Shown piece by piece: positions 20,251 through 34,313 of a stretch of 64,000 nucleotides of DNA. Origin of the DNA: Candidatus Ruthia magnifica str. Cm (Calyptogena magnifica). Lineage in GTDB: Bacteria > Pseudomonadota > Gammaproteobacteria > PS1 > Pseudothioglobaceae. Position 1 is the first letter of the stretch; each line of letters starts with the position of its first letter. The stretch covers positions 1 through 64,000 of the forward strand of contig NC_008610.1 of assembly GCF_000015105.1 (NCBI RefSeq). The letters are read 5' to 3'. Both the position numbers and the translations under genes were made by a program. Below the pieces are notes generated by a model. It was not told where the DNA came from. It searched no databases and saw only the letters and a program-made list of their open reading frames with translations.

Positions 20251-21153
20251 TCAGAGTCCAAAAAAGTTTTTGGCATCTTTAACGTCTGACTTTATTTGTC
20301 GTTTTAGTGCTGAAAAAGAATCAAATTTTTGTTCATCACGAATTTTATATTTGAATACAGTCTTGGCATTTTCACCATAAATCTGGCTGTTAAAATCAAA
20401 TAAAAAAGCTTCTAATAAAATTATTTCGCCCCCAATTGTGGGGCGTTTACCAAGATTGCATACACCGTTATAAATCTTACCATTTAATTCTACATTAACG
20501 GCAAACACGCCTAATAATGGGCTTATTTTTCTTTTAATGAGAATATTAATGGTGGGAAAATCGATAGCTCTGCCTTGTTTTTGGCCATGAATGATTTTTC
20601 CTGAGATTGAAAATTCTCGTCCTAATAGCTGATTTGCTAAGTTAAAATCACCTTTTTTAAGTGATTGTCTGATTTTTGAACTACTAACTCTGTGAAAGTT
20701 GTGAAGCACGGTAGGTGTTTTTTCTACTTCAAAATCAAAAGTTTGTAGTAAAGAAAAATCACCTGTTCGGTTGGCGCCAAAACGAAAATCATCGCCAACT
20801 ATACAGTGTTTAATATTGAGTTTTTTTAGCAGAATCTGCTGAATGAAGGCATCAGCAGAAAGTTGTGAGAATGGCGTATTAAAGTTAATTAACAAGTATT
20901 CCTCTAGTCCAAGATTTGTAAGCAAGGCGTGTTTTTGTTTAAAACTACTTAATGTGGCTTGCATATGTCCAAAAAAGTGTTGTGGCGTTGGTGAAAATGA
21001 AATAAGCACTGATGGTAAATTCATGATTTGTGCTTTTTTAACCAAAGTTTTGATAATTTTTTGATGTCCTATATGAACACCATCAAAGTTGCCAATGGTA
21101 ACGACACTGCCAAAATGAGATTTTAAATTTTGTAAGCCACGAATGAGTTTCAT
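20251..21153 (-). CDS. ribF: Bifunctional riboflavin kinase / FAD synthetase
   Basis: RibF converts riboflavin to FMN and then FAD. The 300-residue product has the N-terminal nucleotidyltransferase motif TIGNFDGVHIGHQ (about residues 19-31), the KKLNIKHCIVGDDFRFG segment, and the C-terminal flavokinase domain with GRAIDFPTINI and GVCNLGKRPT. The length is close to the usual 305-315. It follows the mutY pseudogene on the minus strand by 11 bases. Confidence 0.96.
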   Translation of the reverse strand: MKLIRGLQNLKSHFGSVVTIGNFDGVHIGHQKIIKTLVKKAQIMNLPSVLISFSPTPQHFFGHMQATLSSFKQKHALLTNLGLEEYLLINFNTPFSQLSADAFIQQILLKKLNIKHCIVGDDFRFGANRTGDFSLLQTFDFEVEKTPTVLHNFHRVSSSKIRQSLKKGDFNLANQLLGREFSISGKIIHGQKQGRAIDFPTINILIKRKISPLLGVFAVNVELNGKIYNGVCNLGKRPTIGGEIILLEAFLFDFNSQIYGENAKTVFKYKIRDEQKFDSFSALKRQIKSDVKDAKNFFGL

Positions 21154-21164
21154 AAACGTTTATT

Positions 21165-22172
21165 TTAGTTTAATTGGCAGATGATGTTATCAACTGGTTT
21201 TGGTACGCCAATATTTAACCGAGATAAAGATTTGAATTCACCTTTGACATCCTGGCAGTGAATGAGTAAATGATAGTGGGTGAATCTGTGTTTAAAAGTG
21301 ATTAGATTTTTTTTTACCATAGCTGATGGGTGAAGATCAGCTATGGTTTGCTGAATGTCTTTGTCATTATCTGCGCATTCTACAAAGCTCCATAACCCAC
21401 CACAAATGCCATTGTTTGGGCGTTTTTGTAGATAGATATTGTGTTCATCTTTAAAAATTAGCATGGCAATTGAGCGTGTGGCTTTGTTTTTCTTTGGCTT
21501 TTTCTTTGGGTATTTATTTTGAGTGTTAGTTTGTTGTGCCAAGCAATCAGATCGGATTGGGCACTGTTCACAATCTGGTTTACGTTGGGTGCACAGGGTT
21601 GCGCCTAGATCCATGATGGCTTGTGTATAGTCTGCATTGTGTTCATTAGGCGTATGATATTTGGCTAAGTGTCAAAGTTCTTTAAGTGTTTTGCTTTGTC
21701 CGTAATGACCTTTAACTTGATGGTATCTTGAAAGTACACGTTTAACATTGCCATCAAGTATGGCATAGTTTTGATTAAAGCTAATGGATAAAATAGCACC
21801 TGCTGTGGATTCGCCCACACCATGCAAGTCAATTATTTGTTTAAATTTAGTTGTAAAATTGCCTTGGTATTGGTTCATGATAATATTGTCAGTTGTGTGT
21901 ATGTTTCTTGCTTTGGAGTAATATCCTAAGCCTGCCCATTGAGCTAATACTGAATCTTCAGAAGCTCTGGCTAAGGAGACCAATGTTGGAAAATGCTGAA
22001 TAAAATTATTAAAATAATCAATAACCGTTGTTACTTGAGTTTGTTGCAACATGATTTCACTCAGCCAAACATGATAAGTATTGTTTGGCGTGTCTTGTTC
22101 CGTTTGCCAAGGTAGGTAATGACGACCAAATTTATCAAACCATTTCAGTAGTGGCCTTGAGATTGGGCGCAC
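21165..22172 (-). pseudogene. mutY: Adenine DNA glycosylase MutY interrupted by one in-frame UGA
   Basis: MutY removes adenine mispaired with 8-oxoguanine. The reading frame runs from a GTG at 22172, overlapping the metA TAG by one base, to a stop at 21165, 335 sense and nonsense codons, close to the family length. It is broken only by TGA at 21674-21672. The frame is the same on both sides. The stop replaces a tryptophan conserved in the family (the LWxLxE position), consistent with a single TGG to TGA change. Everything else looks functional: SEIMLQQTQV with the catalytic glutamate, LHGVGESTAGAI helix-hairpin-helix, ILDGNVKRV with the catalytic aspartate, the 4Fe-4S cysteines C-x6-C-x2-C-x5-C, and the NUDIX-like C-terminus. 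TGA acts as a stop in neighbouring genes, so recoding is unlikely. Confidence 0.9.
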
Positions 22173-23227
22173 TATTTTAAATTAAGCGGGTCGTGTGGAT
22201 TAATACCATCCATAAATGGCTTATCAATGTCTTCATGAGTTACTTGATAAACGCAACCAATCCAATTATTGATGATAACATTAGTGGCGTTACTCCAAGT
22301 ATTATTTAGGGTTTTACTAATTAGTTGCTCAGGAAAATCTGTAATGCTAAATTCTGAGGATAAAAGTTTGGTTTTGTACTCATTGAGAATAGCTTTACTT
22401 TGTTCGGTTAAATAGTGTTCAGGAAAAGGTGGATAGTCATCTCGTGTTTTTTTTAAAAAGGCAATAATATCACGTTTGTATTCTTTTAATAAGCTAATAG
22501 TGTCGTATTCTGGATGGCCTTGGAAAAATACAATTCTTAATAAATCTTCGCTAACTCCTAAGTGTACACCAATTTTACTTTCAACCAAAATTTTAACCCC
22601 AGTAGTATCAAATTGTGTTTTTGAAATTTCATTAAAGCGAGAATGTGGAACATCAAAGCGTGTATTCACGCCATTCATTAAAGGGTGTTGTCGGTCTAGT
22701 ACTTGGTGTGGAAATACACCCCAACACTTTTCACCAATGGCTTGACGTTTTTGTCCATATCTAAACTCCAAGACGGCATGCGTCGCTAAACACGAGCATA
22801 ATGTTGAAGTAACGTGGTTATACGACCAATCAACTACTTCTTTTAATTCTTCATAGAAAGGTGCTTTTTGTAAATCTTCTTGTTCAATATGTGCGCCTGT
22901 AATAATCAGCGCATCAAGTCCTTGGGTTTTAATATCTACGAAAGTTTGATAATGTTGTTTGACGTGTTTACTTGTTGTTTTTCCGTGCTTGATTGACAAT
23001 AGTGTAAATGGATGTAGATAAAATTGTGCAATTTGGTTAGAATGCCCAACAAGGCGAAAAAATTGGCGTTCGGTTGTTTCAAGTGCAGCATCTGGCATCA
23101 TGTTTAATAAGCCAATATGTAATTCACGAATGACTTGGTTGTTTGCCCTGTCTTTTGATAGAATGGTTTCACCTTCATCTTTAAGGCGTGAAAAAGCAGG
23201 CAAGTTTGAATGTGCAATTAGTGGCAT
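22172..23227 (-). CDS. metA: Homoserine O-succinyltransferase (MetA family)
   Basis: MetA acylates homoserine at the entry to methionine synthesis. The 351-residue product has the family N-terminus with LHIGLLNMMPDAALETTERQF, the substrate region ITGAHIE, the catalytic cysteine within STLCSCLATHAVL, and the histidine/glutamate pair in FFQGHPEYDT. Whether it uses succinyl-CoA or acetyl-CoA cannot be read safely. Its ATG overlaps the stop of the preceding P-loop gene as TAATG, and its TAG overlaps the mutY GTG, so the three were translationally coupled. Confidence 0.9.
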   Translation of the reverse strand: MPLIAHSNLPAFSRLKDEGETILSKDRANNQVIRELHIGLLNMMPDAALETTERQFFRLVGHSNQIAQFYLHPFTLLSIKHGKTTSKHVKQHYQTFVDIKTQGLDALIITGAHIEQEDLQKAPFYEELKEVVDWSYNHVTSTLCSCLATHAVLEFRYGQKRQAIGEKCWGVFPHQVLDRQHPLMNGVNTRFDVPHSRFNEISKTQFDTTGVKILVESKIGVHLGVSEDLLRIVFFQGHPEYDTISLLKEYKRDIIAFLKKTRDDYPPFPEHYLTEQSKAILNEYKTKLLSSEFSITDFPEQLISKTLNNTWSNATNVIINNWIGCVYQVTHEDIDKPFMDGINPHDPLNLK

Positions 23228-24063
23228 TAGTTCATTGCTCCATAAATAAGCTCAAAGACTTCATCAGCATTCTTGCACCGATACAGGCCCTCACTATCAA
23301 TGGTGTAACCATATTTTTTAGCAATGGCTTCATATTTTGGCTTGCGGTGTTCAAGCAAGCGTGGAAATACCCAGCGTACAAACTCGTTTGGATCTATTTG
23401 TGCGACATAAATTAACTGGTTTTTTTGTAGGTAAATACTCAATTGTTGTTTCAGAAAATTAGCCTGATAATACAAAGGTTTTGGATGTGTTTGTGCACAT
23501 TCAACCAAAGCGGTTTCGTTGGTTTTGCTGGCTCTAATGTAGAGAATTACTGTGTTGTTAGCTAGGGTTTGATATACCTGCTCATTGTCTAATTCACACA
23601 GGCTGCCACCTGCATCATTAATAAAATGATTAAATCCTTGTGTTTTTGCTTTTTGTATAAATTGTGGTACGTCAAGCATGGCCTTTGTTTCTGCGTTTAA
23701 GTGCATCGTTTGACGGGCAATAAAAGTGCCAATTGGTGTACCACCTAACTCAGGATTACCAGCTTTACCTAAAAAAGCAGATACTGATGATAAATTATCA
23801 AAGGTAATGTGATTTTGAATGCTGATAGATTCGTTATCCAGCAGGTCTTTTAGCCATTTGTCTTGTCGGATGTAGTTCTTTATGTTGTCTAAAATTTTAT
23901 CATTCAAATATTCAGCGCCAATGCGATAATCTCCAGAATAATGAAAGTATTTATCTTGATAGCTAAGGAGTTTTGCTAAGTGTGTTTTACCCACGCCTGA
24001 CATACCTAATAGCGTTAAGCATTTATGACTAGAGTTTTTGAATTTAATGGCTGATAGTTTCAT
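23227..24063 (-). CDS. P-loop ATPase/kinase-like protein of unknown function
   Basis: A 278-residue protein with a clear Walker A motif, LLGMSGVGKTHLAKLLS, near residues 18-34. A possible acidic phosphate-site segment, FINDAGGSLCEL, lies near 166-177. The spacing from the P-loop and the size resemble small-molecule or shikimate-kinase-like folds, but no substrate motif is recognised. The C-terminus is hydrophilic. It is linked to metA by a TAATG overlap and follows alaC by 27 bases, so it may be tied to amino-acid metabolism. I can name no established function. Confidence 0.85.
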   Translation of the reverse strand: MKLSAIKFKNSSHKCLTLLGMSGVGKTHLAKLLSYQDKYFHYSGDYRIGAEYLNDKILDNIKNYIRQDKWLKDLLDNESISIQNHITFDNLSSVSAFLGKAGNPELGGTPIGTFIARQTMHLNAETKAMLDVPQFIQKAKTQGFNHFINDAGGSLCELDNEQVYQTLANNTVILYIRASKTNETALVECAQTHPKPLYYQANFLKQQLSIYLQKNQLIYVAQIDPNEFVRWVFPRLLEHRKPKYEAIAKKYGYTIDSEGLYRCKNADEVFELIYGAMN

Positions 24064-31640: not shown

Positions 31641-31959
31641 GCATAACAGTCCAAAACCTACTTTGGAAAAAGAAAATACTTTTTAAAAAATATAATCTAC
31701 TGCTAATTGTTAAAAACACTTACAAATACAAGAAAAATATCCAATGTTACAAAATCTAGTAACAAGCACTTTCAAAAATACCTACAAGCTTCTAACACAT
31801 ATTTTTTTAATTTAGTTCCATAATCTTCAGTGTTTTTACTTACTATTGAAACACAATCCCTTGATAAATTTACCTACTTAGACTTAAATACACAATATAC
31901 TTATAACCTCAACAGTACAGTCATTGTTTAAAAAAAGACAACAAAACAATAGTACCATA

Positions 31960-33240
31960 ATGTGTAGTGCTCTAGATTCTACAGACTCAGATAATGTCAA
32001 TCTAAAAAATAAAGCCGAAAGTTTAATTAACGATAAAGCTAATAAATTTTTCAATTAGTCTAGTTCTGGTAGCATGTAAATCAGCATTTAAGAACTTAAT
32101 TCAAAAGAGATAGATTATCATATTAAAATCCATTAATTTAAGTATTGGTAAGCGTTACATAGTCCAAGGCTATGATATGTTTATCGATTTTGAAATCAAA
32201 TCTGTACATATGTTTAAGCATCGGCTTAGAGTATCAATGTACCAATTTTAGTAGCGATATTAATATTTATGATCCGTTTTCAGATAAAAATTCATTGGCG
32301 ATTGCTTTGAGTAAACCTTGACAGGTTATGATATTCAGCTCACTGTACAAACCCATTGCTCTCCTTAGGAAAAAATCAAAGGCACGTATTACTTTTGGAT
32401 GTTAAAGCTGGAGACAACATCCAATGTATGGAGATTGAGCTTACCCTTTCAATTAGTTTTTAATTTTGGCAAGAAGATTCTAATACTACCCGGAGTGTAA
32501 ACTATGACAAGTTAAATTTTAAATTGTCCTTTAATGACAACGAGTAGTTCATCAATTTTGCGATTACTGATAAGCCCTTGAAAACCAGTAGTAAGATGAA
32601 TTTTCTTAGATTGAGTCCTAACAAAATTCATATTTATAAATACTAGTACTACTGATAGTGATGACAATGTTTGCTGTATATTACTGGATTGATTATTATA
32701 ACTTGTACAGGCGGATATTTATATAGATGAAGCAACAGAGGTTACAATGAATGTTTCTGTGCTATGTGTTGCAGTTGATTATTAAGGTTCAGGAGAACTT
32801 AAGATAAGTGCCATATCTTTTATCAGGTGTTGCTTATCGATTAGCAAGTGGCGCTTAAGGCAGAAAATAGCAAACCTATTGTAAACATTGTCAAGTACGT
32901 CTGTCATGACGACTAAGAACACACGAGTGATTAAGTGGTGTTGAATTTAGCAGTATCATTCCAATTGATTTGAACACTCAGAAGTATGTCAATACCCCAA
33001 GATAATATTGGTTTGATGTTGATAATAAGTTCACTTTTTGAAAAAAATTCAGGCGATGTCACATTGTACACCATTAATATTTTAGTGGTTGATATGACTG
33101 ATATTGATGGACGTGGTAATATCAGCATTCAAAATACTATTGAGGTATTTCAAGTAGGCATAATAGTAGCTACTATTCATACGACTAAAAGACTTTGGAA
33201 GACGTACTGGGTGAGTACAGCAGGGCAAAACAATTGAGGA
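31960..33240 (+). pseudogene. Degraded invasin/intimin-like inverse autotransporter adhesin
   Basis: No open frame spans this region, but short readings on the plus strand follow one another in different frames, as in a shattered large surface protein. Near 31960: NLKNKAESLINDKANKFFN, like the segment before an inverse-autotransporter barrel. Near 32140-32290: LSIGKRYIVQGYDMFIDF, then NFSSDINIYDPFSDK. Near 32318-32580: LTGYDIQLTVQ, KIKGTYYFW, DVKAGDNIQ, QEDSNTTRS, KLNFKLSFNDNE and NFAITDKPLKTSSKMNF. These follow the beta-strand order of the intimin/invasin barrel (PF11924 type), ending in NKIHIYK. Near 32710-33150: VDEATEVTMNVSV-like and TLYTINILVVDMTDIDG readings resemble Ig-like passenger repeats. 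At least three frames and several stops are involved. The 345 bases upstream (31615-31959) hold no recognisable gene. Confidence 0.6.
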
Positions 33241-34313
33241 CTAGGTACACACAAGCCAAAGTACGCAATTTAAGGTAGAAGAGGAAGTAGTGGTTGAGAC
33301 GTGTTTAGTGGGCAGCATGGTACACCTTTTCCGGTCAAGATATGCGTGTTTTTGTGGAATTCTGCTGAGAATGGGGCACCATAATCTGTCTACGGTTATA
33401 CTCAAATGCGGAGCTACTCATTAAGAATTACGGCTTTAATGTTAGGCTTCTAAAAGACTAGGCGTCTCTTGAAGGTGTTAATTTGATTATTTTTTACTTA
33501 AACGAATTTTAAAGGTGTTTGTTTACTTTGTTTTTGGGTAATGCCTAGTTATTGATGATTCAGAGAAATTGTAAATAAGGTCAGAGTGTAATTTATTCAA
33601 TATTTTTCTTTGGTTTTCTTAAAAAATACAGGAATAAGCTAAATTAAATGCAGAAATCTGTATAAGTTCAGAAGTTATTACCTTTTCTTCATTTTTGATA
33701 AAAGTAAAATGAACGGGGACAAATTATAGGTAAAAGTGCAATCATTATAGACGGATACAATGGAGAGTCTTTGGTTTTAGAATCAGTTATAATTTAAGAT
33801 ATTTTTACAATGGATAAGAAAAATGAATAACAATGAGATTTTAAACAAGGCGTTGCATTTAAGTGTAATTGATAAGTTTGTGTGGTTAATGTATTATTAA
33901 AAGCTTAAATTCGTATTGCTCATATAAGCGCTTAAATTCTTCTTGGTTGGCAAAAAAGCATCGTATAAAGCAGGACGTAGCAGTTAGAGATGCTTGTAAA
34001 AAAGTTAATACAAGGTTGGAATCTTGTAAGGTAGATCAGATGGAAGTTGCGTTTGAAGAATTTTTTTACTGATGAGTATTAAATATTTGAAACAAGAAAA
34101 AATAAAATTAGATGGTTCAGTAAAGTATTATGAAGCGCAGCAAGCTAGATTAGTCCTGTCTGTTCTAGACAGGTATTGAAGTATATAATATAGTATTAAT
34201 ACCAATTTTTAACATAAAATTTTGCATATTATTTTAGAAAAAATAGATATATTAATTGTTGCTATTGGGTATCAACATAAAACACCTGATTTTTGGCAAA
34301 ATAGAATTTAAAA
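33241..34313. other. Gene-free eroded region before hisF
   Basis: About 1.07 kb without an intact gene. Short plus-strand readings may be further remnants. One starts at 33823 with MNNNEILNKALHLSVIDKF, faintly like small addiction-module components. A 35-codon ORF at 34072-34179 reads MSIKYLKQEKIKLDGSVKYY and so on. A reading just before hisF gives KIDILIVAIGYQHKTPDFW. None can be assigned. A 7-bp hairpin (CCTGTCT 34155-34161, AGACAGG 34167-34173) lies within the small ORF and has no T-run after it. Confidence 0.5.

Follow-up and report, generated by a model that had tools for sequence, protein, structure and literature searches.

A mutY pseudogene and a raised share of G:C to T:A substitutions in the clam symbiont Candidatus Ruthia magnifica

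The mutY gene of Candidatus Ruthia magnifica is very probably (probability about 0.92) a true pseudogene that was lost after the lineage had diverged from the remaining clade II clam symbionts and well before the present. The in-frame stop codon, the changes at invariant residues, the intact copies in relatives and the raised share of G:C to T:A substitutions together point to a true pseudogene. The locus lies in the window analysed here, positions 1 to 64,000 of the single-contig genome of 1,160,782 bases, and its features are collected in Table 1. The finding of the pseudogene has already been published and is not new. According to the available part of Kuwahara et al. 2011 (PMC3202245), Rmag_0017 (21165-22172) is a mutY pseudogene via UGA at codon 167, it has in-frame deletions of 3 and 15 bp, and its encoded sequence is almost intact. 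The gene, coordinates, stop, codon number and both deletions are identical to those of the locus described here, and the statement of the initial annotation that mutY is disabled agrees with that paper. Our analysis goes beyond it in the lesions at invariant residues and in the substitution spectrum. The argument of PMC3202245 is built on rRNA G+C, and its main text never uses the terms transversion, spectrum, mutT or mutM. A literature search (titles and abstract starts, with incomplete coverage) found no study relating the substitution spectrum of vesicomyid symbionts to mutY, mutM or mutT. The spectrum test of the mutator consequence may be the new part, and we make this claim of newness weakly.

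The frame was read on the minus strand from a GTG at 22172 to a TAA at 21165 and has 336 codons and one internal stop. With the stop read as tryptophan, it scored 336.1 bits against the mutY model TIGR01084 (cut-off 286.5) and 339.4 against the longer model PRK10880, which is below that model's own cut-off of 427. Pfam found HhH-GPD (PF00730) and NUDIX_4 (PF14815, 50.8 bits) in the read-through protein. Solved adenine glycosylase chains also matched it, the best being 1kg7 (2.9e-66), which we take to be the E. coli enzyme. The match to a curated model, the HhH-GPD domain, the four Fe-S cysteines and the NUDIX-like domain identify the frame as MutY; the NUDIX-like domain is present, yet it carries W257C and two deletions. 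A functional mutY gene has an uninterrupted frame, and this one is broken by the TGA at codon 167.

Table 1. Features of the mutY locus and its neighbours (positions in the window)
Feature	Position	Strand	Basis or remark
mutY pseudogene (Rmag_0017 in the literature)	21165..22172	-	frame, profile and domain matches, literature
N-terminal part, 166 residues: HhH-GPD with Glu39 and Asp140	21675..22172	-	frame, Pfam, homologue columns
In-frame TGA, codon 167	21672..21674	-	Trp in 108/108 distinct homologues
C-terminal ORF, 149 codons, with Fe-S cysteines and NUDIX domain	21165..21614	-	first ATG/GTG/TTG past the stop
Codon 87: Lys	21912..21914	-	Arg in 108/108 homologues
Codon 95: Asp (A95D)	21888..21890	-	Ala in 107/108 homologues
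Codon 107: Thr	21852..21854	-	Pro in 108/108 homologues
Codon 117: His (P117H)	21822..21824	-	Pro in 99/108 homologues; helix-hairpin-helix loop
Codon 257: Cys	21402..21404	-	Trp in 108/108 homologues; NUDIX domain
In-frame 3-bp deletion site, between codons 243 and 244	21443..21444	-	
In-frame 15-bp deletion site, about codons 302/303	21266..21267	-	placement ambiguous
metA, upstream; its stop shares one base with the GTG start of mutY	22172..23227	-	
ribF, downstream of mutY	20251..21153	-	

The frame was compared with 108 distinct homologues (109 loci less one duplicate), with the nearest relatives taken from among the matches listed. As the initial annotation had stated, the frame is open except for a single TGA at a conserved tryptophan, and the catalytic residues and the 4Fe-4S cysteines are kept: Glu39, Asp140 and Cys 194, 201, 204 and 210 are all present, at columns invariant in the 108 homologues. 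Glu39 and Asp140 are presumably the catalytic residues and the four cysteines the ligands of the Fe-S cluster. Its description of the gene as otherwise intact has to be given up, since R87K, P107T and W257C are at invariant columns, and A95D, P117H and two in-frame deletions were also found. Ten of the 109 columns with at least 85% conservation among the 108 homologues are changed in R. magnifica, and four of these are invariant (R87K, P107T, the stop at W167, and W257C). The remaining four departures are L91I, I119V, P231A and P264V, and positions 119 and 264 vary among the homologues too. Under nearly the same scoring, eleven relatives depart at 2 to 7 columns apiece, and these departures include P-to-V/I/K and W-to-F changes recurring in nearly all of them. 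The intact-frame relatives of the genus have extra codons at two places, and the resulting gaps of 1 and 5 residues in R. magnifica are the deletions for which Kuwahara et al. 2011 (PMC3202245) give lengths of 3 and 15 bp. A +1 or -1 slip at codon 167 would meet another stop within 10 codons.

The initial annotation had proposed a comparison with mutY of related symbionts, and among the 12 genomes of the genus the frame is intact in six (G002, G003, G006, G007, G010, and G011). One genome, that of R. magnifica, has this TGA, one has a fragmented remnant (G009), and four (G001, G004, G005, and G008) show only a weak match to another glycosylase. The remnant in G009 (C1:23320-23754) adjoins metA, is heavily fragmented and is an independent loss, and the sister lineage G006 keeps mutY. 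The available part of PMC3202245 reports that mutY is intact in six other clade II symbionts and that clade I lost it by deletion. From their place in the tree and their absent mutY, we infer that G001 and G008 are the published clade I.

If a near-cognate tRNA-Trp read the UGA at a low rate, some full-length MutY might still be made. The stop has the context CTT TGA C, and C follows none of the 27 TGA terminators among 173 genes. UGA followed by C would be expected to terminate weakly, and the frame past codon 167 stays open. However, a read-through MutY would still bear R87K, P107T, P117H, W257C and the two deletions, and the G:C to T:A excess described below argues for missing MutY activity, so that we regard a leaky stop as quite improbable. 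The prfB gene (RF2) passes its cut-off and has no internal stop, and 27 of the 173 genes end in TGA, and thus UGA is a stop codon in R. magnifica. Still less probable is a base-calling error in a gene that is stop-free in the organism: there is only one assembly and the 2011 study, in its available part, used the database sequence CP000488 (PMC3202245), but the other mutY lesions and the spectrum are independent of that base. Short reads of Calyptogena magnifica individuals have been published, and Russell et al. 2020 (PMC7473567) aligned them to NC_008610.1. If mutY is a true pseudogene, translation would end at codon 167 and leave an N-terminal half without the Fe-S cluster and the NUDIX domain. 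OG:A mispairs would then go uncorrected and G:C to T:A changes would accumulate, and MutM, which R. magnifica keeps, may hold the mutator effect down.

For the substitution spectrum, nine genomes of the genus contributed 200 to 400 kb each, and 173 orthologous genes with 15,531 fourfold sites were aligned. A substitution matrix was fitted for each branch by EM, with strands pooled and a matrix-logarithm correction, on one fixed topology. This was the protein tree of an earlier 170-gene set, ((((G002,G010),G011),G003),(G009,G006)),G000 with G001 and G008 as the other clade, where G000 is R. magnifica and supports are 96-100. A 44-gene protein tree differs in placing G009 and G006 inside G003 (support 80), and a 44-gene nucleotide tree moved clade I inward (supports 40 and 64); both keep G009 with G006 and G002 with G010. 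The spectrum is that of substitutions at fourfold sites, in which mutation and codon selection are combined.

An excess of G:C to T:A changes in the lineage, for which the initial annotation had suggested looking, is present. The ratio of G:C to T:A over G:C to A:T was 0.138 (0.111-0.169) on the R. magnifica branch. It was 0.200, 0.204 and 0.240 in the mutY-less lineages G009, G001 and G008, and 0.049, 0.059 and 0.091 in the all-intact lineages (G006, G011, and G003). The mutM-less terminal branches G002 and G010 had 0.079 and 0.060, which is no excess upon mutM loss. The pooled ratio was 0.072 in the three intact lineages and 0.224 in G001 and G008, which have long been without mutY, and the excess of R. 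magnifica over the pooled intact lineages was 1.93-fold (1.39-2.60). In each of 150 gene bootstraps, its ratio was above those of all five mutY-bearing terminal lineages. The cleanest pair is G009 and its sister G006, which differ about four-fold (0.200 vs 0.049). A simple parsimony count of R. magnifica against G003, unpolarised by an outgroup for the former, gave 92 to 632 vs 22 to 244, which is borderline (Fisher P 0.056) and agrees in direction. In one half of the genes, R. magnifica had 0.114 and G003 0.099.

The excess might instead have another cause, such as other repair losses, oxidative load or codon selection at fourfold sites, with mutY loss merely correlated. R. magnifica also lacks recA, as reported in the available part of PMC3202245. 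The stem of G002 and G010, both of which keep mutY, had a ratio of 0.121 (0.088-0.168), overlapping that of R. magnifica. When G:C to T:A was taken relative to A:T to T:A instead of transitions, R. magnifica did not stand out and the lineages were not separated. On the other side, mutY was lost three times separately on the tree (in R. magnifica, G009 and clade I) and the excess is found in all three, and the four-fold difference between G009 and its mutY-keeping sister also speaks for mutY. We consider another cause unlikely, although it is the most probable of the alternatives.

With 0.072 as the reference with MutY (G003, G006, and G011 pooled) and 0.224 as the reference without it (G001 and G008), the ratio suggests a fraction of about 0.44 (0.21-0.73) of the R. 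magnifica branch without MutY, if nothing else moved the ratio. Subsets gave an absent fraction of 0.28 to 0.63. The loss of mutY may thus have occurred around the middle of the branch. The locus had been described as a snapshot of the first step of loss, a view at odds with the several other lesions and with a spectrum suggesting that a considerable part of the branch passed without MutY.

The same annotation proposed that the loss could push the genome toward A+T. The spectrum weakens this proposal, as G:C to T:A changes make up about 12% of the G:C losses on the R. magnifica branch, where transitions dominate, and the predicted equilibrium G+C moves little (0.127 in R. magnifica and 0.134 at the intact ratio, each value inside the interval of the other). 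Fourfold G+C was 0.267 in R. magnifica. The six other clade II lineages ranged from 0.317 to 0.337, and G001 and G008 were at 0.175. Fourfold G+C was equal, 0.318 and 0.318, in mutY-less G009 and its mutY-bearing sister G006, for gene sets that differ in size. The excess is present, yet its size is not enough to make it the chief source of the A+T richness of R. magnifica, and mutY loss as the main cause of its lower G+C is not supported. This bears on the published proposal that the fall in G+C was driven by the loss of mutY. The greater genetic distance and lower G+C of R. magnifica were credited to mutY loss by Shimamura et al. 2017 (PMC5310779). In the available part of that paper the basis is distance, G+C and repeat density of ten genes, whereas in our spectrum most loss of G:C is by transitions.

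Marks of the loss were also sought inside mutY, by comparison with five intact relatives (G002, G003, G006, G010, and G011). On the R. magnifica side there were 30 nonsynonymous (the stop included) and 25 synonymous single-base changes. G:C to T:A made up 12 of the 30 nonsynonymous changes, compared with 261 of 2323 in 138 control genes (Fisher P 6e-5); this exceeds the prediction from the lineage's own neutral ratio and was noticed after the fact. Among synonymous changes there was no excess (1/25 in mutY and 133/2940 in the controls). Control genes were required to be present in at least four of six compared genomes, among which G009 could be included. The nonsynonymous to synonymous ratio of mutY was 30 to 25, or 1.2, and that of the pooled controls 0.79, with 27 of the 138 control genes at or above the mutY value. 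The intact mutY genes of the other lineages had 5:7, 7:23, 11:7, 9:0 and 10:10. Since the ratio of R. magnifica mutY is not extreme, the gene may have been under constraint for much of the branch.

Two further genes, mutM and mutT, were followed through the genus. In R. magnifica mutM is above the cut-off and stop-free. It is above the cut-off in nine of the 12 genomes and degraded in the other three, which all have mutY; the degraded mutM (fpg) loci are L134 in G002, L135 in G010 and L136 in G007. mutT is above the cut-off in seven of the 12, R. magnifica included. In G009 (L276) the match lacks the first 23 model positions, in G005 (L277) a remnant was found, and a profile search for mutT gave no match in G001, G004 and G008. 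A:T to C:G relative to transitions was highest in G009 (0.099). G001 and G008, in which mutT gave no match, had 0.063 and 0.052, overlapping the intact G011 (0.046) and G003 (0.045), and the stem of G002 and G010, both with mutT, had 0.073. A signature of mutT loss is thus suggestive in G009 only.

In the genus, six of the 12 genomes are without intact mutY and three without intact mutM, and none is without both. Among the 49 genomes of the family that are at least 90% complete and at most 5% contaminated, mutY is missing in 11, mutM in eight and both in none. In this scoring, mutY of G045, which is cut off close to the end of a contig, and mutM of G083, which is partial but passes the cut-off, were counted as present, and mutY of G075, of which there is only a piece, as missing. 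The chance of zero overlap is 0.11 for the family and 0.09 for the genus, with kinship ignored. In the 34 other family genomes, which are less complete or more contaminated, neither gene was found in six (G015, G018, G048, G059, G068, and G069), G057 has only a piece of mutM, and G067 has no mutM and a mutY with one internal TAG. We rejected the idea that joint loss of mutY and mutM is forbidden, because the lack of overlap is not significant and up to eight of the less complete genomes may lack both. Reciprocal loss of mutM and mutY is known in Sodalis of lice and in Blochmannia, according to the available parts of PMC11137140 and PMC4389277. In these insect symbionts one of the two genes is lost and the other kept, and the clam symbionts are alike in this, in small numbers and without significance. 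One could tentatively see the vesicomyid symbionts as a natural experiment in 8-oxoguanine repair, in which separate lineages lost mutY, mutM and mutT in different combinations, each loss marks the spectrum, losing both mutY and mutM is avoided, and the spectrum dates the losses, with that of R. magnifica mutY at about mid-branch; we hold it somewhat doubtful that this broader view is right as a whole.

Two other places in the window were noted. Between metA and an aminotransferase gene, an ORF of 278 aa (23227-24063, minus strand) has weak matches only (homoserine kinase-like and ABC ATPase). Positions 31720-34310, about 2.6 kb, are without a long ORF, the longest start-to-stop frame being 83 aa. 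It was compared with stretches of G001, G002, G003, G009, G010 and G011, and no match was found in those of G001, G002, G009 and G010. G011 has four matching pieces (71-89% identity) and G003 has one (68%), in both cases located elsewhere, and the region looks like a decayed gene region.
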